From the NCBI GenBank assembly GCA_040757695.1, contig JBFLWK010000019.1, positions 1-32,431 on the forward strand: a stretch of DNA of 32,431 nt. Reading direction: 5' to 3'. Below the pieces are notes generated by a model. The model saw only the letters and a program-made list of their open reading frames with translations. It ran no database searches and was not told the DNA's origin. The first letter of the stretch is position 1. Every line of letters begins with the position of its first letter. Made by a program: the position numbers and the translations under genes. The stretch comes from Elusimicrobiota bacterium (GTDB taxonomy: Bacteria > Elusimicrobiota > UBA8919). Below, piece after piece: positions 2,682 to 31,916 of the stretch.

Positions 2682-4346
2682 ATGGATTTCACAGAATTGA
2701 AACAAATTGCTTACAAAGAGTGGGAAAAAATTGTAAACCCGTCAAAGATTCTGATATTCGTAGGGCTTGGAACCTGCGGGAAATCTGCCCAAGCAGAAGA
2801 AGTAGAAGCAGTATTGTCCGCACTGTGTAAAAAGAAAAAAGTTGATTTTGAAATAATCCAGGTCGGTTGCATCGGGCTTTGCTATTTAGAACCATTAGTT
2901 GAGATAATTAAACCTGCCCAAACACCTGTATACTTTGGTAATCTCACAGTTAAAGAAGTTCCTAGGATTGTTAATTATATTTTGCATAATAAAATTCCAC
3001 AGAAACTTATTGTTGATGTAAAAAAATTACTGAAATATCAAACCAGAAGAATTCTGAAAAGATGTGGACTTATTAGCCCGGAAAATATCTATCATTACAT
3101 TGCGAACGATGGATACAGCGGGATAGATTTAGCATTGAAAATGTCGCCGGAAGGAATTATCAACGAAATAAAAAAATCCGGGCTTCGCGGTCGTGGTGGT
3201 ATTGGTTTCCCGACGGGTAGAAAATGGGAATTATGCCGAAACGCGAATACATACGAATTAGAAAATACGAATAAACACGAATTAAAAAGTATTCGTAGAA
3301 ATTCGTGTTGTAATTCGCACAAATTCGTGATTTGTAATGCTGAAGAAGGTGAACCTGGCACTTTTAAGGACCGGCTTCTGTTGGAAAGCGACCCGCATTC
3401 TGTTATTGAAGGTATGCTTATCGCAGGTTATGCGGTTGGTGCTGAAACTGGCTATATCTATATCAATCATAATTACACAATTGCGATAGATAGAGTCAAA
3501 AAAGCAATAGAAGAGGCAACAAAATATGGACTGCTTGGTAGAAATATTTTGGGCTCCCAATTTAATTTCCAGATTTTTGTCACATCTGCCGAAGGCGGTT
3601 ATGTTTCCGGCGAAGAAACAGCACTTCTGGAATTGCTTTCAGGTAAAAAAAGTATTCCGCGTTCAAGACCGCCATATCCAGTTGAAAAAGGTGTATTCAA
3701 TATGCCAACAGTTGTGAATAATGTTGAAACATATGCTAATGTGCCACAGATTATATTATATCATACAGAATGGTTCAGACAATGTGGGAATGTAAACAGT
3801 AGTGGGACAAAATTATTTTCAGTTTCAGGCGAGGTAAATAGACCAGGTGTAGTAGAATTACCATTAGGTATCCGCTTGAGACGGCTAATTTTTGATATTT
3901 GTGGTGGCTTACCGAAAAATAAAAAATTGAAAGCTGTTTCCGTCGGTGGACCTACCGGTGGCTGTGTGCCTAAAAAATATATTGATATATCAGTGGACTT
4001 TGATTCACTTTCCGAAATTGATGCTGCGATGGGTTCAGGCGGTATTATTGTTATAGATGAAACACAATCTATGGTTGAACTATGTAAATATTTTGCAAAA
4101 TTCAATATGAACGAATCCTGTGGAAAATGTAGCCCTTGTAGAATTGGCACGGTGCATTTATTCAATATCTTGAAAAAGATTACAGATGGTAAAGGCACAA
4201 CCGATGATATAAATAAACTGCAAGAACTTGCAAAAACAATTAAACTAACTGCTTTGTGCGGGTTAGGTCAGTCCGCACCGAATCCGGTAATATCAACATT
4301 AAAACATTTTTATTCTGAATATCAAAAAGTTCTATGCCACAAATAA
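2682..4346 (+). CDS. NuoF/HydB-like NADH-binding flavoprotein subunit
   Basis: This subunit should bind FMN and NAD(H) and pass electrons to the formate dehydrogenase encoded next. A thioredoxin-like [2Fe-2S] domain comes first (Cys32, Cys63, Cys67). The FMN/NADH domain has GLRGRGGIGFPTG (about 166-178), AEEGEPGTFKDR and EGGYVSGEETAL. An SLBB region follows, then ESCGKCSPCR (about 477-486) and a later Cys for the [4Fe-4S] cluster. It lacks the C-terminal ferredoxin domain of bifurcating HydB. About 18-20 extra residues at roughly 187-208 come from an inverted repeat element. It overlaps fdhA by 13 nt, so the two are probably translated together. No NuoE-like gene is adjacent. Confidence 0.88.
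   Translation: MDFTELKQIAYKEWEKIVNPSKILIFVGLGTCGKSAQAEEVEAVLSALCKKKKVDFEIIQVGCIGLCYLEPLVEIIKPAQTPVYFGNLTVKEVPRIVNYILHNKIPQKLIVDVKKLLKYQTRRILKRCGLISPENIYHYIANDGYSGIDLALKMSPEGIINEIKKSGLRGRGGIGFPTGRKWELCRNANTYELENTNKHELKSIRRNSCCNSHKFVICNAEEGEPGTFKDRLLLESDPHSVIEGMLIAGYAVGAETGYIYINHNYTIAIDRVKKAIEEATKYGLLGRNILGSQFNFQIFVTSAEGGYVSGEETALLELLSGKKSIPRSRPPYPVEKGVFNMPTVVNNVETYANVPQIILYHTEWFRQCGNVNSSGTKLFSVSGEVNRPGVVELPLGIRLRRLIFDICGGLPKNKKLKAVSVGGPTGGCVPKKYIDISVDFDSLSEIDAAMGSGGIIVIDETQSMVELCKYFAKFNMNESCGKCSPCRIGTVHLFNILKKITDGKGTTDDINKLQELAKTIKLTALCGLGQSAPNPVISTLKHFYSEYQKVLCHK
3244..3330 (+). repeat. In-frame inverted repeat element inside the nuoF-like gene
   Basis: Four CGAA cores start at 3244, 3254, 3268 and 3278, and four TTCG cores follow, with Cs at 3294, 3304, 3316 and 3326. 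The arms contain CACGAATT and AATTCGTG, so they are inverted. Spacing is 10/14/10 on the left and 10/12/10 on the right. It encodes a hydrophilic insert before the conserved KFVICN motif. Confidence 0.75.
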
Positions 4347-7661: not shown

Positions 7662-9374
7662 ATGGCTAAAAATGTGCCGTCAGATATTGAGATTGCACAA
7701 TCAATCAAACTGGAACCAATTATGGAGATTGCAGAAAAAATCGGAGTAAGAAAAAACGAACTTGAACTACATGGCGACTACAAGGCGAAAATAAAACTGG
7801 AAATTCTTGAGCGGCTCAAAGATAAACCACAAGGCAAATATATTGATGTAACCGCAATCACACCAACACCATTAGGTGAAGGAAAAACAGTAACAACAAT
7901 CGGGCTTTCACTCGGGCTTAATAAAATTGATAAAAAGGTTATTACTACTATCAGACAGCCATCATTAGGCCCTGTTTTTGGTATTAAAGGTGGCGCAGCA
8001 GGAGGCGGATATTCGCAGGTTTTACCAATGGAGGACTTCAATCTGCATCTTACCGGCGATGTCCATGCGGTATCAATCGCTCACAATTTGTGTATGGCAT
8101 TTCTGAATAATGCACTTTACCGACGACAAATAAATATAGACCCCAAAAAAATCTTATGGCGGTATGTTGTTGATGTCTCGGAACGGTTTTTAAGAAATAT
8201 AATTACAGGGCTTGGTCCCGGTGACGACGGTGCACCACTCTATACCGGTTTTGATATCTCGGTTGCTTCAGAAGTGATGGCGATTCTGGCATTAACAAGT
8301 TCACTGCGGGATTTAAGAGAACGATTAAGAAAAATAGTGGTTGCATTCACATATGATAACAGACCTGTAACCGCAGAAGATATAAAAGTTGCTGGTGCGA
8401 TGGCGGTACTCTTGAAAGATGCAATCAAGCCTAATTTGTTGCAGACGACAGAAGGCACACCGTGTTTTGTTCACGCAGGACCTTTCGCAAATATCGCACA
8501 CGGGAATTCATCAATCATTGCGGATAAAATTGCATTAAAACTGACTGATTATGTGGTTACAGAAAGCGGATTCGGTGCGGATTGCGGAATGGAAAAATTT
8601 ATGAATATCAAATGCAGATATTCCGGGCTTATACCGAATTGTGTTGTGATGGTTTGCTCAATCAGAGCGTTAAAAATGCATTCAGGTAAAATAAATGTTG
8701 TTGCCGGTAAATCGCTACCGGATGAACTTGCAAAAGAAAATTTAGAATTGGTAGAACAGGGTTTGTGTAATTTAGAAAAACAGATTGAAAATGCAAAATT
8801 GCATGGTGTGCCAGTAGTGGTTGCAATCAACAGATTCACAACAGATACCGATAGAGAAATAGAACTTGTCAGAAAAAAAGCAGTTGAATTTGGTGCTGAA
8901 GATGCTGTTGTTTCAGATGTTTGGGAAAAAGGTGGCGAAGGTGGTAAGGAACTTGCAAAAGCAGTTGTAAAAGCATGCGAGAAAAAAGAAGGCGGACGAC
9001 AATTCAGGTTCCTATATGAACTGAACTGGCCTATCAAGAAAAAAATAGAAACAATTGCAACAAAAATTTACGGTGCAAAAGATATACAATATCTTCAACC
9101 TGCAGAAGAAAAAATTAAACTCTATACCGATTTAGGCTGGGATAAATTACCGATAAATATGGCGAAGACGCATCTGTCACTTTCACACGAGCCAAGTTGG
9201 AAAGGTAAGCCGAAGGATTTTATATTGCCGATTCGTGATATTCGCGCATCAGTCGGCGCCGGCTTCCTGTATCCGCTTTGCGGCGAGATGAGAACAATGC
9301 CAGGACTGCCATCAGTCCCCGCAGGTACCAGAGTTGATATAGACAAAGATGGTAAAGTCATCGGCTTATTTTAG
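7662..9374 (+). CDS. fhs: Formate-tetrahydrofolate ligase
   Basis: It uses ATP to join formate to tetrahydrofolate, giving 10-formyl-THF, the second step of the methyl branch. At 570 residues it is slightly longer than the usual 556. The P-loop region TPTPLGEGKTVTTIGL lies near residues 68-83, then RQPSLGPVFGIKGGAAGGGYSQ with residues typical of the family, NLHLTGD, and FADI-type folate-site sequence. The C-terminus PGLPSVPAGTRVDID is also conserved. A perfect promoter and GGAGG precede the start, so it is probably transcribed separately from the fdh genes. A 32-bp palindrome begins 3 nt after the stop. Confidence 0.96.
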   Translation: MAKNVPSDIEIAQSIKLEPIMEIAEKIGVRKNELELHGDYKAKIKLEILERLKDKPQGKYIDVTAITPTPLGEGKTVTTIGLSLGLNKIDKKVITTIRQPSLGPVFGIKGGAAGGGYSQVLPMEDFNLHLTGDVHAVSIAHNLCMAFLNNALYRRQINIDPKKILWRYVVDVSERFLRNIITGLGPGDDGAPLYTGFDISVASEVMAILALTSSLRDLRERLRKIVVAFTYDNRPVTAEDIKVAGAMAVLLKDAIKPNLLQTTEGTPCFVHAGPFANIAHGNSSIIADKIALKLTDYVVTESGFGADCGMEKFMNIKCRYSGLIPNCVVMVCSIRALKMHSGKINVVAGKSLPDELAKENLELVEQGLCNLEKQIENAKLHGVPVVVAINRFTTDTDREIELVRKKAVEFGAEDAVVSDVWEKGGEGGKELAKAVVKACEKKEGGRQFRFLYELNWPIKKKIETIATKIYGAKDIQYLQPAEEKIKLYTDLGWDKLPINMAKTHLSLSHEPSWKGKPKDFILPIRDIRASVGAGFLYPLCGEMRTMPGLPSVPAGTRVDIDKDGKVIGLF

Positions 9375-9376
9375 TA

Positions 9377-9408
9377 TTTCACAATTTCAGAATTCTGAAA
9401 TTGTGAAA
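9377..9408 (+). repeat. Perfect 32-bp palindrome between fhs and arsR-like gene
   Basis: The left half is TTTCACAA then TTTCAGAA, and the right half is its exact reverse complement with no spacer. It lies between the fhs stop and the arsR-type start. It may be the regulator's operator, an fhs transcript-end hairpin, or a repeat element with 8-bp units. Relatives are at 376-403 and 9719-9750. Confidence 0.85.
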
Positions 9409-9424
9409 AAGAGAGGTGATGTAT

Positions 9425-12179: not shown

Positions 12180-12669
12180 AATTGCTGTTGTTGGTTTTGG
12201 AAATATTTTGATGGGTGATGAAGGTGTTGGTGTCCATGTTATAAAAGAATTACAAAACCCTTCTACTTTCTACCGTCTACCTTCTACCGTTGAGTTAATT
12301 GACGGTGGAACTGCATCATTTGATGTAATTTTATCGCTTAAAAATGTTGACAAACTAATAATTATTGATGCTATAAAAAACGGTGGTATTTCTGGAGAAA
12401 TTTATAAATTTCAGAATTTCCAAATTTCCAAATTTGGAAATTTGGAAATTGAAAAATTATCTTTGCACGATATAAATATAATTGATGCGTTAAAAATTGC
12501 TGGAAAAGTTGGACAACTTCCAAAAGAAATTATTTTTATTGGGATTGAACCCAAAGAGATTCTGCCCAAATTGGAACTTTCCGAAGAAGTTAAAAATAAA
12601 ATACCGGAAGTTATAAAAATGGTTATGTCGGAGATAAATCATGATTGTCTCACAGCAAAAGCCAATTGA
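12151..12669 (+). CDS. Hydrogenase maturation endopeptidase (HyaD/HybD family)
   Basis: It removes the C-terminal tail of the large subunit after nickel insertion. Conserved features are VVGFGNILMGDEGVGV with Glu24, the LIDGGT Asp, and LSLHDINI with the metal-binding His. The start is uncertain. ATG 12151 gives 172 residues and a 29-nt overlap with the large subunit gene, while TTG 12157 sits at better spacing from GAGGT (12145-12149). Two segments are repeat-derived: NPSTFYRLPST, from 12260-12287, and a 16-residue stretch from 12408-12455 before LSLH. The core motifs are intact, so the enzyme is probably active. Confidence 0.88.
   Translation: MQLENSKLHKIAVVGFGNILMGDEGVGVHVIKELQNPSTFYRLPSTVELIDGGTASFDVILSLKNVDKLIIIDAIKNGGISGEIYKFQNFQISKFGNLEIEKLSLHDINIIDALKIAGKVGQLPKEIIFIGIEPKEILPKLELSEEVKNKIPEVIKMVMSEINHDCLTAKAN
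12260..12287 (+). repeat. 4 x 7 bp repeat inside the maturation protease gene
   Basis: Units CTTCTAC, TTTCTAC, CGTCTAC and CTTCTAC in 7-bp phase. It is the same unit as the two tracts inside the antiporter gene at 25969 and 26330. Confidence 0.8.
12408..12455 (+). repeat. 6 x 8 bp inverted repeat inside the maturation protease gene
   Basis: Left units are ATTTCAGA then ATTTCCAA twice. Right units are ATTTGGAA twice then ATTGAAAA. The halves are inverted, and the 48-bp length keeps the reading frame (16 codons). Confidence 0.8.
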
Positions 12670-18293: not shown

Positions 18294-18788
18294 ATGTCTA
18301 AAAAAATTCTTATTGATTTAGAAAAATATTATAAAACCAAAAACTTTTTAGCAGAGTGCAGTTATTTTTATCATCAACTAACTGCCAATGATGCCCCTAA
18401 AAACAACGGGGTTGAAAAACTACTGTCAAAAGCGGCACAATTTGTTATTTGCCGTCAATGCAAAAGAGCTGATTGCATCCTTGCCTGTCCAAATGAAGCG
18501 CTTGAAAAGAATAAAGATGGTATTTTAGAAAGACATAATTTCAGATGCACATCATGTAAAAGTTGTTCGGTTGCATGTCCATTTGGCACAATTTATCCGG
18601 AAATTTTGTCGTATAAGACCGCACAATGCGATTATTGTATTGATAGATGCAACGGTAAACCGCCAAAGTGTGTTGAGACAGACAAAACGGGGATTTTGAG
18701 TTGGGTTGATATAGAAGCAGACGAAACAAAAAGCATTTACAAAATTTCAGATAAACTTTTGGTATATTCGTTGAAGTGGCACAAATAA
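18294..18788 (+). CDS. Ferredoxin-like electron-transfer protein (HycB type)
   Basis: A 164-residue cytosolic protein with several [4Fe-4S] motifs: CRQCKRADCILACP (about 53-66), CTSCKSCSVACP (about 83-94), and a pattern CDYCIDRCNGKPPKC (about 109-123). The arrangement is that of HycB/HydN/CooF proteins that link dehydrogenases to membrane hydrogenases. It is the last gene before the membrane hydrogenase operon, separated from it by an 82-bp repeat element. It could connect formate dehydrogenase or the diaphorase pair to the membrane complex. Confidence 0.85.
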   Translation: MSKKILIDLEKYYKTKNFLAECSYFYHQLTANDAPKNNGVEKLLSKAAQFVICRQCKRADCILACPNEALEKNKDGILERHNFRCTSCKSCSVACPFGTIYPEILSYKTAQCDYCIDRCNGKPPKCVETDKTGILSWVDIEADETKSIYKISDKLLVYSLKWHK

Positions 18789-18790
18789 CA

Positions 18791-18872
18791 GTTTAGAGTG
18801 TAGAGAATTTAGTTTAGAGAAAACTCAAAAACTCTAAACTCTAAACTCTAAACTCTGAACTCTAAACTCTAA
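18791..18872 (+). repeat. Empty inverted repeat element (4 x 7 and 5 x 7) before the nuoH-like gene
   Basis: Left arm 18791-18818 has units GTTTAGA, GTGTAGA, GAATTTA and GTTTAGA. Right arm 18832-18866 has five CTCTAAA-type units plus a partial one, inverted to the left. The final A is the first base of the nuoH-like ATG, so there is no separate ribosome binding site. The left arm is nearly the same as those at 29083 and 30787. Confidence 0.9.
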
Positions 18873-22258: not shown

Positions 22259-22615
22259 ATGAGTGTAGCCGATATAGCCAAGGCATTAGGTAAAGTTGTT
22301 CAGAACTTGATTGTGCCTGAACTGCGTGCTATAAGAACCGAGTTAGAACATCATAATGAACAGTTCGGACAAATTGATAAGCGGTTTGAACAAGTTGATA
22401 AACGGTTTGAGCAAGTTGATAAACGGTTTGAAATGGTTTTTGATGAATTAAAATCTATGCGAAAAGATATGGAAGAAATAAAAGTCGGTCAAGCACAAAT
22501 ACTTGCCAAACTTGAGTTAGACCATCGGATGACAAGAATAGAAACAATAATTGAAAAAGCAGGATTATTCACAGGAATTGCTAGAGAAAAGACGGAAAAC
22601 TACAAACCAAAATGA
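22259..22615 (+). CDS. Coiled-coil protein with 21-bp internal repeats
   Basis: The function is not known. The 118-residue protein opens VADIAKALGKVVQNLIVPEL, then has a long coiled coil (about 30-80) with the 7-residue unit DKRFEQV repeated three times. Those heptads are 21-bp near-identical DNA repeats (about 22375-22430), so length could vary by slippage. There is no membrane segment. It overlaps the catalytic hydrogenase subunit by 4 nt (ATGA). Similar small coiled-coil proteins are common in candidate-phylum genomes, sometimes beside toxin-antitoxin genes, but no such partner is present here. Confidence 0.7.
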   Translation: MSVADIAKALGKVVQNLIVPELRAIRTELEHHNEQFGQIDKRFEQVDKRFEQVDKRFEMVFDELKSMRKDMEEIKVGQAQILAKLELDHRMTRIETIIEKAGLFTGIAREKTENYKPK

Positions 22616-23811
22616 CTGATAAAAAACGAACTGTTATACCAATAGGTCCGTATCATCCGCTGCAGGAAGAGGCGGAATTTTTCAAGTTATATGTTGAAGG
22701 CGAAAAAGTGGTTGATATGGATATAGAAATCGGCTACAACCACAGAGGAATTGAAAAACTTTCTGAATCACTGCATTGGGACCAATCCACATTTCTGGTG
22801 GAAAGAATTTGTGGTATATGTTCCACAAGCCATCCGTTTGCATATGTTAATGCAGTTGAAGATTTAGCAGGAATAGAAATCCCTGTCCGTGCAAAATATA
22901 TTCGTTCAATCATAGGCGAACTGGAAAGATTTGAATCGCATCTGTTATGGCTTGGGCTTGCAGGACATTTTCTTGGCTACAATACCGTCTGGATGTGGGC
23001 GTGGAAATATCGTGAGATGGTTGAAGATATGTGCGAGTTTATAACAGGAAATAGAAATCACTATGCAATGATGAAAATTGGTGGTGTGCGTTTAGATATT
23101 GAGAAGAAAGATATTCCACAAATAGAAAAAATGTGCGATAGTTATATTCCTGTGCTTGATATGTTCAAAGGTGCGGTGATGGACGACCCTGTGATTCATG
23201 CAAGAACAAAAGGTGTGGGAATATTACCGAAGGAAGTTGCTATTGATTATTGTGTTGTAGGACCTACTGCACGAGCAAGTGGTGTAGATATTGATGTCCG
23301 GCGGGATGACCCACAAAACAGTGCGTACAATTTAGTTGATTGGAAAGTTATTGTTACACAAAATGGCGATGTGTTTGATAAACTTATTGTAAGGATTCTT
23401 GAACTGTATGAATCAGCAAAAATAATAAAAGGTTGTCTTGAAGGACTCAAAAAGGAGCCGGAAGGCAATTTTGACTTAAATGTAAAAGAAATTCCCGTCG
23501 GTGAAGGGATTGGACATTATGAGGCACCCCGTGGCGAGGTGTATCACTATGTTCGGTCTGATGGTTCTTCTCGGCCTGTTCGTCATAAAGTTAGAGCACC
23601 AAGTTATGTCAATGTTCCATCAAACCAGTATGCTGTCCGAGGGCAGACCATTTCCGATGCTGCGATAATTCTTGCAGCGGTTGACCCGTGTTATTGCTGT
23701 ACAGAACGGGTTGCTGTGATAGATAAAGCAAAAAACAAAAAACTGATGAATGGTTTTGATTTGATTAAACTCTGTCAAAAGAAAACAGAAAAAATTAAAA
23801 GCAAAATATAA
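22612..23811 (+). CDS. Group 4 [NiFe] hydrogenase catalytic subunit (NuoD/EchE/MbhL-like)
   Basis: The catalytic subunit of the membrane hydrogenase, 399 residues. It keeps both NiFe ligand pairs: RICGICSTSH (Cys66 and Cys69 region) and DPCYCCTER near residue 360. It is thus a real hydrogenase rather than a quinone-reducing NuoD, which has lost these Cys. There is no cleavable C-terminal tail after the L2 motif beyond the usual group 4 ending, so the protease at 12151 need not process it. PIGPYHPLQEEAEFFKL at the start and HYEAPRGEVYHYV are family motifs. Expected reaction: proton reduction with ferredoxin electrons. Confidence 0.94.
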   Translation: MTDKKRTVIPIGPYHPLQEEAEFFKLYVEGEKVVDMDIEIGYNHRGIEKLSESLHWDQSTFLVERICGICSTSHPFAYVNAVEDLAGIEIPVRAKYIRSIIGELERFESHLLWLGLAGHFLGYNTVWMWAWKYREMVEDMCEFITGNRNHYAMMKIGGVRLDIEKKDIPQIEKMCDSYIPVLDMFKGAVMDDPVIHARTKGVGILPKEVAIDYCVVGPTARASGVDIDVRRDDPQNSAYNLVDWKVIVTQNGDVFDKLIVRILELYESAKIIKGCLEGLKKEPEGNFDLNVKEIPVGEGIGHYEAPRGEVYHYVRSDGSSRPVRHKVRAPSYVNVPSNQYAVRGQTISDAAIILAAVDPCYCCTERVAVIDKAKNKKLMNGFDLIKLCQKKTEKIKSKI

Positions 23812-25599: not shown

Positions 25600-25706
25600 A
25601 AGACCCGCTTACTATTTTGTATGGTGTGATGTCAATTATTGCACTTGTCGGTATTGTATGGGTTACAATTCATGATAAAAAGATGAGGAAAGCAAAACAG
25701 CAATGA
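25596..25706 (+). CDS. 36-residue single-pass membrane protein
   Basis: This micro-gene overlaps its neighbours by ATGA on both sides: its ATG at 25596 overlaps the stop of antiporter gene 1, and its TGA at 25704 overlaps the start of antiporter gene 2. The product has one hydrophobic helix (about 7-25) and a basic tail ending KMRKAKQQ. This double coupling is strong evidence that it is translated and probably a small subunit of the complex. It resembles the 34-residue product at 18187-18291 in layout. Confidence 0.68.
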   Translation: MKDPLTILYGVMSIIALVGIVWVTIHDKKMRKAKQQ

Positions 25707-27694
25707 GCATCCTACTTTACCCGATTTTTTTACCAATTGTGATTGGTATTGTAATGTTATTGATAGGTAGACGCGGCCTTAAGGCCTCACTACCTGTAAT
25801 TACGACATTTATCGTTTTAATTTTAAGTATTGTATTATTTTCAGCAGGTGAGATAAATTATACGATTCCATGGCTTTCTTTTGGAATTGATTTTTCTCTT
25901 CGGGCTTATTCATTTTCAGCAATGTGTGTTTTGTTTTCGTCATTATTTGCATTTTTAATCTGCCTTTACCTTCTACCTTCTACCTTCTACCTTCTACCTT
26001 CTTTCATACTCATCAATCTCGGAGTTGTTAACGGTGCGCTTCTTTCAAACAATTTTGTAATTTTTGTTTTATTCTGGGAACTCGCTGCGATAATGTTGTA
26101 TTTATTAATAAGAACACAGAACAGATACGAAATCCCGCAAGCGAGGCACGGAACAGACACGGAAAGTTCTGTTTCAGTTCCGTGTAAAGTTCAGAGTCAG
26201 TTCTGTGATTCCTACAAAACAGCGACGAAGGCGCTTTATATTATCGGGTTTTCAGATTTCTGCCTTTTACTCGGAATCATTTTATTGTGGAATTTAACAA
26301 AAACATTTAATATGTCCAAAATCCATAATCTTCTACCTTCTACCTTCTACCTTCTACCTTTTACCTGCCTTTGCATTGGTGCACTTGCAAAGGCAGGTGC
26401 GATGCCGTTCCATACATGGATACCGGATGCGTCTAAAGATGCGCCGGTTGAAGTAATGGCATATCTTCCCGCATCTCTGGACAAACTTTTAGGAATATAT
26501 CTTCTTGTCAGAATTTGTACCGACTTCTTTAACTGTCAACTGTCAATTGTCAACTGTCAACTTGTTTTGATGTTCCTCGGCGCTTTTACAATCATCGCTG
26601 CCGTATTTATGGCACTTGTTCAGCATGACTTAAAAAAAATGATTGCGTATATGAATATATCAGGTGCAGGTTATATGGTTTTAGGTATTGGAACTAATAC
26701 CCCTATTGGTATTGCAGGTGGACTTTTTTATATGTTAGGCACAGTTTTATGGACATCGTGTTTGTTTTTATGTAGTGGTTCGGTTGAAAAACAAACAGGA
26801 ACAACGGAATTAGATAAACTTGGTGGACTTTCAAAAGTGATGCCAATTACTTTTTGGGCAACCCTAATTGCTGCACTTTCAATTTCAGGTGTCCCACCGT
26901 TTAATGGTTTCTTCTCAAAATGGCTGATTTATCAAGGGCTGATACAGCAGATAGCAGATAGCAGATGGCAGATAGCAGTTGTTTTGTTTTTAGTAGCAGC
27001 GATGTTTGGTTCTGCACTTACTTTAGCGTCATTTATAAAATTGATACATTCAACATTTTTGGGCAAACCGTCAACCGTCAACCGTCAACCGTCAACCGAT
27101 GTCTCATGGACGATGTGGTTCCCGACGGTAATTTTAGCAGTATTGTGTATTATTTTCGGCATTTTCGCCTATCAGATTCCATTGAAACATTTCATCTTTC
27201 CTTCCATTCGCTTCGCTCACCCCCCAATAAATTGGGGGGCATTTAGTGGATTATGGCATCCTGATTTAGCAACATTGTTAATTATTGTCGGCATAATTCT
27301 CGGCTTGATAATTTATCTTTTGGGAACGATAAAAACTATAAGAAAAACGGAAACATATATCTACGGTGAATCACCTGAAATTTTTACAGAGGGCTTCCAG
27401 GGAACGGAATTTTATCTTACGATTTCTAACTCAAAACCATTCGCTTCAATTTATAAAAAAGCAGAAAAGGGAATATTAGATTTCTACAACTGGGCATTTA
27501 ATATCGCAAAAATGGTTGCCAATAGTTTCTTTATATGTATTGACAGAATGCTTGAAAATATTTATATTGGTATAGACCGTTTGACAGCGATTGTTTCAAC
27601 ATTTACTTCGGAACTTCAGGGCGGGCTTTTGCAGATTTATCTTTATTGGTCACTGTTTGGATTGATGATTCTTTTATTTATGCTTTGCAGGTGA
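25703..27694 (+). CDS. Antiporter-like membrane subunit 2 (HyfB/NuoL-like) with many repeat insertions
   Basis: A 663-residue polytopic subunit. It keeps the key Glu in FVLFWELAAIML (near 130) and Lys in ALAKAGAMPFHTWIPDA (near 231), then LKKMIAYMNISGAGY and VPPFNGFFSKW. The C-terminal extension (about 545-663, with GFQGTEFYLTI) ends in further helices, perhaps like the lateral arm of NuoL. Seven repeat elements lie inside the gene, all in frame, mostly in predicted loops. Without them the length would be roughly 580-600. The reading frame is open throughout, so the gene seems functional in spite of the insertions. Confidence 0.9.
   Translation: MSILLYPIFLPIVIGIVMLLIGRRGLKASLPVITTFIVLILSIVLFSAGEINYTIPWLSFGIDFSLRAYSFSAMCVLFSSLFAFLICLYLLPSTFYLLPSFILINLGVVNGALLSNNFVIFVLFWELAAIMLYLLIRTQNRYEIPQARHGTDTESSVSVPCKVQSQFCDSYKTATKALYIIGFSDFCLLLGIILLWNLTKTFNMSKIHNLLPSTFYLLPFTCLCIGALAKAGAMPFHTWIPDASKDAPVEVMAYLPASLDKLLGIYLLVRICTDFFNCQLSIVNCQLVLMFLGAFTIIAAVFMALVQHDLKKMIAYMNISGAGYMVLGIGTNTPIGIAGGLFYMLGTVLWTSCLFLCSGSVEKQTGTTELDKLGGLSKVMPITFWATLIAALSISGVPPFNGFFSKWLIYQGLIQQIADSRWQIAVVLFLVAAMFGSALTLASFIKLIHSTFLGKPSTVNRQPSTDVSWTMWFPTVILAVLCIIFGIFAYQIPLKHFIFPSIRFAHPPINWGAFSGLWHPDLATLLIIVGIILGLIIYLLGTIKTIRKTETYIYGESPEIFTEGFQGTEFYLTISNSKPFASIYKKAEKGILDFYNWAFNIAKMVANSFFICIDRMLENIYIGIDRLTAIVSTFTSELQGGLLQIYLYWSLFGLMILLFMLCR
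25969..26001 (+). repeat. 4 x 7 bp CCTTCTA tract inside antiporter gene 2
   Basis: Four exact CCTTCTA units (25969-25996) plus a partial one. It encodes YLLPSTFYLLPS and shares its unit with tracts at 26330 and 12260. Confidence 0.9.
26114..26207 (+). repeat. Nested inverted repeat with about 11-bp units inside antiporter gene 2
   Basis: CACAGAAC (26114-26121) pairs with GTTCTGTG (26200-26207), and CACGGAAC (26147-26154) with GTTCCGTG (26177-26184). The right arm has four TTC-led units of 11-12 bp. It encodes a polar insert of about 30 residues. Confidence 0.75.
26330..26365 (+). repeat. 4 x 7 bp CTTCTAC tract inside antiporter gene 2
   Basis: Four exact CTTCTAC units (26330-26357) followed by a degenerate fifth. 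Same orientation as the tract at 25969, so the two are not an inverted pair. Confidence 0.9.
26531..26561 (+). repeat. 4 x 7 bp AACTGTC tract inside antiporter gene 2
   Basis: Units AACTGTC, AACTGTC, AATTGTC and AACTGTC (26531-26558) plus AAC. It encodes NCQLSIVNCQL between membrane helices. Confidence 0.88.
26946..26978 (+). repeat. 4 x 7 bp AGCAGAT tract inside antiporter gene 2
   Basis: Units AGCAGAT three times with GGCAGAT fourth (26946-26973), then a partial unit. It encodes QQIADSRWQIA. Confidence 0.88.
27069..27098 (+). repeat. 4 x 7 bp CGTCAAC tract inside antiporter gene 2
   Basis: Four exact CGTCAAC units (27069-27096). It encodes STVNRQPST in a loop. Confidence 0.9.
27205..27239 (-). 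repeat. Palindrome with GTGAGCGAAGCGAA tail inside antiporter gene 2
   Basis: CCCCCCAAT and ATTGGGGGG form a 9-bp stem (27220-27239). Read on the minus strand, the palindrome is followed by GTGAGCGAAGCGAA, nearly the same tail as at 10665-10680. The palindrome sequence itself differs between the two copies. Confidence 0.75.
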
Positions 27695-29492: not shown

Positions 29493-31037
<1,545 letters not shown>

Positions 31038-31551: not shown

Positions 31552-31815
31552 ATGTATATGCTAAACATTGCATTATTGATATTAGTTGTTGCCTGTTTTT
31601 TGTGTCTATGGCGGTTTGTTAAAGGACCTAACGGCTCCGATAGATTTCTATCAATAATACTTTTGACACATATTGCAATGGGTTTTTTAGGGATATATGC
31701 CGTAAAAACCCAATCGGAATTCCTGATTGATTTAACGATAGATACTGTGATACTTGCATTTATTGGCACACTTGCAGTAAGCAAATACTTGCAAGGAAAA
31801 GAGTTAGACGAATAA
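31552..31815 (+). CDS. mrpF: MrpF/MbhB-like antiporter subunit
   Basis: From ATG 31552 the product has 87 residues with three membrane helices. The family signature RFVKGPNGSDRFLSII (about 21-36) and IDLTIDTVILAFIGTLAVSKYL are present. A TTG at 31537 is in frame but lies in the repeat, so it is not used here. The order mrpE, mrpF, mrpG is standard. There is no clear ribosome binding site. Confidence 0.89.
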   Translation: MYMLNIALLILVVACFLCLWRFVKGPNGSDRFLSIILLTHIAMGFLGIYAVKTQSEFLIDLTIDTVILAFIGTLAVSKYLQGKELDE

Positions 31816-31822
31816 AAAGGCA

Positions 31823-31905
31823 GGTTAAAGGTAAAAATAAAAGGTTAAAATTAAAGGTATAAACTAAAATTCAGAAATTTTAACCTTTAACCTTAAACCT
31901 TTAAC
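31823..31905 (+). repeat. Inverted heptad element between mrpF and mrpG
   Basis: The left arm (about 31823-31857) has GGTTAAA-like units, and the right arm 31878-31905 has four CTTTAAC-type units, inverted to the left. It fills most of the 101-nt gap. Confidence 0.8.
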
Positions 31906-31916
31906 TTGATTTTATT

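Follow-up and report, generated by a model that had tools for sequence, protein, structure and literature searches.

Introduction

Heptamer arrays are already known in bacteria and their origin is unexplained. Repeats with a seven-nucleotide unit are over-represented in many bacterial genomes and have been linked to the polymerase footprint and to slippage (Mrazek et al., 2007, as summarized in PMC4679880 and PMC4692102). In these summaries the heptanucleotide long simple sequence repeats (LSSRs) are dominated by heptamers and dispersed, like the arrays described here. As far as the summaries go, our arrays differ in being mostly genic by number, in using many units and in replacing sequence while the length stays approximately constant, and also in that orthologous loops hold the period despite unrelated units. 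The TAACTGA repeats of Beggiatoaceae, Cyanobacteria and Bacteroidetes are likewise 7-nt direct repeats, some of them intragenic, with an orientation limited by stop codons; however, they use one unit and are mostly intergenic near start codons, whereas here dozens of units are found, mainly in coding sequence (PMC4679880). The GGGAATC/GGGGAYT repeats of Xanthomonas and Nostoc share the heptamer and the preference for four units, but are G-rich, quadruplex-forming and mostly intergenic, and the units found here are not based on G runs (PMC4692102).

Repeats inside genes that are read through in frame are known as well. Intragenic REPs, among them the GTAG and CGTC types, and the Rickettsia palindromic elements (RPEs) are described in-frame insertions (PMC3733652), and two of the tracts reported below resemble a GTAG REP and an in-frame palindromic insertion, respectively. 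These known elements are palindromes and real insertions (PMC3733652), and the five heptamer arrays of the same gene are neither. Finally, template switching at inverted repeats causes multi-base changes and homogenised arms in yeast genes (PMC8604942). It has in common with the present case that several bases of coding DNA are replaced at once without adaptive cause, but it acts between inverted repeats (PMC8604942), whereas direct copies of 7 or 8 nt are found here, for which a copying mechanism would have to be assumed. In open-licence papers we found no report on such arrays in Elusimicrobia, none on heptamer arrays in signal peptides and no description of orthologous loops occupied in a length-neutral manner by heptamer arrays of changing unit.

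Results

The antiporter gene and its operon

The window, a stretch of 32,431 nucleotides, is contig C19 from the genome of an uncultured Elusimicrobiota bacterium (G000; 2.89 Mb, completeness 99%), which has Elusimicrobia bacterium UBA4817 among its relatives. The single intact reading frame that had been proposed from the sequence alone was confirmed (Table 1), and its product matches Pfam Proton_antipo_M at 6e-50. This domain together with many transmembrane helices identifies the protein as HyfB/NuoL-type, with NuoL, HyfB, MbhH-like subunits and formate hydrogenlyase subunit 3 as its kin. Since it stays below every NCBIfam equivalog cut-off, the subunit is named by type only. The gene is accompanied by nuoD-, nuoH- and Mrp-like genes, and the operon resembles one for an energy-converting hydrogenase that includes Mrp-like subunits. 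The NuoD-like protein retains the motifs RICGIC and DPCYCC (compare the large subunits of group 4 [NiFe] hydrogenases). A search of viral contigs for relatives of the antiporter gave none.

Table 1. Features of the window discussed in the text; positions are those of the window.
Feature	Position	Strand	Type	Remark
Antiporter gene	25703-27694	+	HyfB/NuoL-type	663 aa, one uninterrupted frame, inside a hydrogenase/Mrp-like operon
E1	25967-26002	+	heptamer array TTCTACC, about 5 units	codes for residues 89-100, at the loop connecting helices 70-89 and 98-114
E2	26114-26210	+	nested inverted repeat, CACRGAAC/GTTCYGTG arms, no heptamer array	27-aa in-frame insertion
E3	26330-26366	+	heptamer array CTTCTAC, 5.3 units	loop 211-216
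E4	26531-26562	+	imperfect heptamer array AACTGTC, 4.6 units
E5	26946-26978	+	heptamer array AGCAGAT, 4.7 units
E6	27066-27098	+	heptamer array AACCGTC, 4.7 units
E7	27206-27239	+	palindrome with tail, degenerate GTAG-type REP, no heptamer array	minus-strand form CCCCCCAATTTATTGGGGGGTGAGCGAAGCGAAT
NuoD-like gene	22612-23811
nuoF-like gene, repeat	3244-3338		CACGAAT-type inverted repeat
MrpD-like gene, repeat	30779-30882		compound inverted heptamer array
Inverted array pairs	18783-18872, 12398-12458, 9368-9410, 31815-31913		7/8-nt, perfect or imperfect hairpins	intergenic and coding

Seven tracts of different kinds

The sequence-only reading had described seven repeat elements within the gene, which is partly confirmed: five of them are 7-nt tandem arrays, whereas E2 is a nested inverted repeat and E7 a REP-like palindrome. 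The arms of E2 pair as CACAGAAC...GTTCTGTG and CACGGAAC...GTTCCGTG, one pair nested in the other. The element is absent from all eight antiporter homologues and adds 81 nt. E7 is made of ATTCGCTTCGCTCA and the palindrome CCCCCCAATAAATTGGGGGG. We regard it as a degenerate REP-like element because its minus-strand form resembles copies in G006 (ATGTAGCCCCCGAATTTATTCGGGGGTGAGCGAAGCGAAT), G007 and G004; similar copies are also found in G000. The GTAG tag has decayed in E7 (ATGCCCCCC), whereas the copies in G006 show ATGTAGCCC. Y1_Tnp genes, putative RAYTs of the kind expected alongside a GTAG-tagged REP, are present in G000, where the Y1_Tnp profile has six matches over the cut-off. Compared to most homologues the net length effect of E7 is about zero. 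Thus, of the two properties of RPEs and REPs, a palindrome or stem-loop is found in E2 and E7 but not in the five heptamer tracts, which are direct repeats, and lengthening of the host protein is found for E2 (+27 aa) but not for the arrays (median 0 aa in the nine-loop set described below). In-frame GTAG-type palindromes with the tail TGAGCGAAGCGAAT or a similar one were also seen at three loci of G007 and G004 (L221, L228 and L231), in etfA and in an AIR-synthase-like gene.

The placement of the tracts in loops between membrane helices, likewise proposed beforehand, agrees with an AlphaFold2 model of the protein. The model was built from 13 sequences and its confidence is modest (mean pLDDT 63); in it, each of the seven tracts lies within or overlaps an inter-helix segment (90-97, 143-162, 211-216, 276-282, 420-422, 454-468 and 492-519). 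Residues 138-170, encoded by E2, form a low-confidence loop in it.

A population of 7- and 8-nt arrays seen in one family

In 412 kb of G000 tracts above a fixed length were counted by period, with a Markov shuffle as control. Period 7 accounts for 77 tracts, period 8 for 22 and period 9 for 4, other periods being nearly absent, whereas the shuffled sequence held no tract of period 7 or 8; a chance origin of this class of arrays is excluded. A broader survey covered 27% of G000 (792 kb) together with 1149 kb from G006. In the G000 part, 130 seven-mer arrays were detected, mostly four units long, with 58 units, and 92 of the arrays lie within genes. Their density is higher in intergenic (45 per 100 kb) than in coding sequence (13 per 100 kb); by number they are mostly in genes because coding sequence makes up 93%. 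With tandem 7-nt units beyond chance and an intergenic density above the genic one, the arrays show two properties of LSSRs.

By the strict test the antiporter gene holds four arrays where 0.33 are expected for its length (nominal P = 4e-4), which bears out the unusual repeat density noted in the sequence-only reading. Only one further gene of 631 has at least four arrays, and that one is 16 kb long. The antiporter gene probably carries so many arrays because it has many tolerant loops.

Fourteen other genomes of the phylum, sampled over about 75 kb in total, showed no 7- or 8-mer array. A 22-nt array built from TTCTACC, the unit of E1, occurs in three of 60 genomes, all three from the source family. 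Within the sequence tested the arrays are thus restricted to one family of the phylum. Units are reused at distant loci (53 distinct ones among 102 versus 87 expected); local copying from one array to a neighbouring one was considered and rejected, its signal being weak in G000 (P 0.02) and absent in G006.

The window also contains inverted pairs of 7/8-nt arrays (Table 1). The loop with the inverted repeat in the nuoF-like gene exceeds that of G006 by 16 aa; the G006 loop carries an octamer array (GCCCAATC). The compound array of the MrpD-like gene accounts for about 20 aa more than in G006, whose MrpD-like gene has an array of its own in a loop that differs by at most 2 aa from array-free homologues.

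Arrays replace loop sequence

The antiporter loops were compared codon by codon with those of eight homologues. The loop of E1 falls short of that in the nearest homologue by 3 aa, and of those in homologues by 3 to 10 aa, thus there is no net insertion at E1. The E3 segment has 29 aa versus 27 to 33 in homologues without arrays. For E4 the segment has 27 aa, and 26, 27, 27, 26, 27, 30, 22 and 24 aa in the eight homologues (26, 27 and 27 in the array-free ones); for E5 it has 28 aa, and 30, 27, 27, 28, 30, 30, 27 and 30 aa in the homologues (27, 27 and 30 in the array-free ones). The E6 segment has 28 aa versus 29 and 29 in array-free homologues.

As loops with and without arrays are of similar length, the five tracts did not call for any repair of the frame. 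The sequence-only reading had assumed that each element was inserted and the frame repaired afterwards, or that the insertion length was tuned. Insertion holds for E2 with its 27 aa, but the five arrays sit in loops of about homologue length and give no support to tuning. Nor do homologues carry the same residues, as ancestral protein sequence would require: they show other residues at equal loop length. The tracts therefore represent neither of these two outcomes but a third one, replacement. The hydrogenase antiporter gene has stayed intact because the tracts mostly replaced old loop sequence. As a whole, the interpretation given in the sequence-only reading is partly supported. No observation calls for a removal of the tracts from the transcript.

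The same was seen in other genes. In nine loops of six genes from family genomes, a list that is not fully independent, since one loop enters it twice, and that includes a truncated allele (-27), alleles with an array differ from array-free ones by a median of 0 aa, to be set against about 10 aa if the arrays were insertions. Palindrome-bearing alleles (n=3) are longer by 12, 19 and 26 aa. The loop of etfA has identical length in eight genomes, four with arrays (CGACTTC, GGACTTC, CGACTTC and GACATCG) and four without. In the AIR-synthase-like gene the loop has 14 aa with arrays (two genomes) and 14 aa without (three genomes), although other members of the family tolerate 19, 26 and 40 aa, and an RsmG-like gene shows 42, 42 and 41 aa with arrays versus 41, 41 and 41 aa. 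Length is not conserved everywhere, the shorter loop of E1 being one departure. Where arrays stand opposite array-free loops in pairs from G000 and G006, the difference ranges from -16 to +19 aa, and in two of these empty-site pairs the difference is exactly +21 nt, i.e., three units (for example TTACTCTCAACC versus TTACTCTCAACTCTCAACTCTCAACTCTCAACT), so that some arrays have the appearance of expansions. For one of the two, match lengths across the family indirectly suggest a deletion in G006 instead.

Same place, same period, different unit

Reciprocal best hits between G000 and G006 (median identity 73%) gave 285 variable loops, of which 21 and 12, respectively, contain arrays. Eight loops have arrays in both genomes where, given the set of variable loops, 0.9 would be expected (Fisher P 9e-8), and in seven of the eight the period is equal, being 7 in both. 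Despite this, the units of these seven 7-mer pairs are no more similar than permuted ones (3.4 of 7 positions, P 0.69); unrelated units at orthologous loops are, e.g., CAATCTG/CTTACCA and AGATACA/CAGAGTT. Near-identical units occur in pairs outside this set (ACTTACT/ACTTACT, CGACTTC/GGACTTC and AAAAATC/AAAAATG).

The antiporter loops show the same change of unit. Opposite the array of E3, G006 has TTACCCG and G005 a degenerate array, and opposite E5 an ACTTCCA array is found in G004. In the E6 loop G004 and G001 have octamer arrays and G006 a palindromic element, and for E4 short-period tracts of other units were recognized by eye in the homologues L002, L005 and L006. A 36-nt array tract in the G000 gene at C11:4381-5788 is identical in the G006 orthologue, the two proteins being 69% identical.

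Selection for an open frame and arrays in signal peptides

Of 97 coding 7-mer tracts, 83 are free of stops on the sense strand and only 28 on the antisense strand, which supports the selection for function that the sequence-only reading had considered. Where a unit contains a stop triplet, it is out of frame or altered in coding arrays; in E5 the sole junction with an in-frame TAG reads TGG. Arrays are also concentrated at gene starts: 47 of 121 fall within 35 codons of the N-terminus, versus 11 expected, and there they build signal-peptide-like stretches such as MKKFFYLLPFTFYLLPFTCLYS. Many G000 genes have such N-termini consisting largely of heptamer arrays and often ending in CLYA, with purine-rich arrays encoding a lysine-rich start and pyrimidine-rich inverted arrays the hydrophobic core. 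The factor common to array sites may be tolerance of sequence change.

Discussion

The five heptamer tracts belong to the 7/8-nt array population that extends across the G000 genome and its family, E2 being a separate in-frame insertion and E7 a REP-like palindrome. Starting from the observed period, family restriction in the tested sequence, median length neutrality, stop avoidance and recurrence in the same loops, we put at about even the chance that the arrays arise by a lineage-specific and largely length-conserving process and that selection then retains those that leave the frame open. In such a process a heptamer near or within the region would be copied repeatedly over the adjoining sequence, and because neighbouring sequence is copied over, ancestral bases would be replaced and not pushed apart. 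Replacement is the observed pattern; a template switch over a short distance, or misaligned synthesis with subsequent realignment, would be the most likely molecular route, as a direct-repeat counterpart of quasipalindrome correction. Selection would then retain arrays without in-frame stops at tolerant sites, i.e., inter-helix loops, linkers and signal peptides. Against pure length-conserving copying stand the two +21 nt cases and the genome-wide reuse of units, the latter because local copying does not predict reuse across distant loci.

The main rival remains insertion by slippage or duplication, often of 21 nt, with the loop length restored later by separate selected deletions. It explains the two +21 nt pairs, and equal length is also found in 159 of about 260 variable loops without arrays, but it fits poorly with the AIR-synthase-like gene, where array alleles keep the array-free length in spite of the tolerated longer loops, and with etfA, which has no allele of deviating length at all; we consider it rather unlikely. 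That the arrays are old and ancestral to the family, their units mutating and homogenising by concerted evolution while period and place persist, would account for the array state common to orthologous loops far beyond chance, for the equal periods and for the near-identical pairs. However, these pairs lie outside the seven-pair set, whose similarity is that of permuted units, and the etfA array is missing in G004 and present in its congeners G006 and G007, so array gain and loss must be frequent, and such an origin appears improbable.

The view of the sequence-only reading, inserted repeat elements brought to a multiple of three by tuning or repair of their length, is true of the 81 nt of E2, but the absence of lengthening at the five heptamer tracts and array-free orthologues of about equal length contradict it, making it very improbable for the arrays. 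Hardly credible is a family of mobile elements moved by a transposase such as RAYT. Unit reuse within the genome beyond chance, Y1_Tnp genes in all eight family genomes and the motif ATARAGGCA before arrays in 20 of 50 occurrences could be read in this way, yet the arrays lack common conserved ends, Y1_Tnp genes are also present in five of 14 control genomes and the known partners of such transposases are GTAG palindromes (PMC3733652). The motif itself consists of signal-peptide codons (...CLYA) in one fully translated copy and in the listed N-terminal proteins. As an element terminus beside purine-strand arrays, AGGC/ATARAGGCA was therefore rejected, since it codes for signal peptides in the copies read.

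The alternation of unrelated-unit arrays with array-free loops of equal length makes the origin of such arrays directly testable: slippage predicts changed length, copying by template switching predicts none. Tentatively, and at less than even chance, we suggest that the family has an active, length-conserving rewriting of weakly constrained DNA, codons included, into 7/8-nt arrays, in which the unit is renewed from species to species and place, period and gene length are kept. If true, this would be a mutational route that alters about ten adjacent amino acids in one step, leaves the frame unshifted and acts mainly on signal peptides and loops, and it would caution against taking such clusters of changes for adaptation or for insertions.
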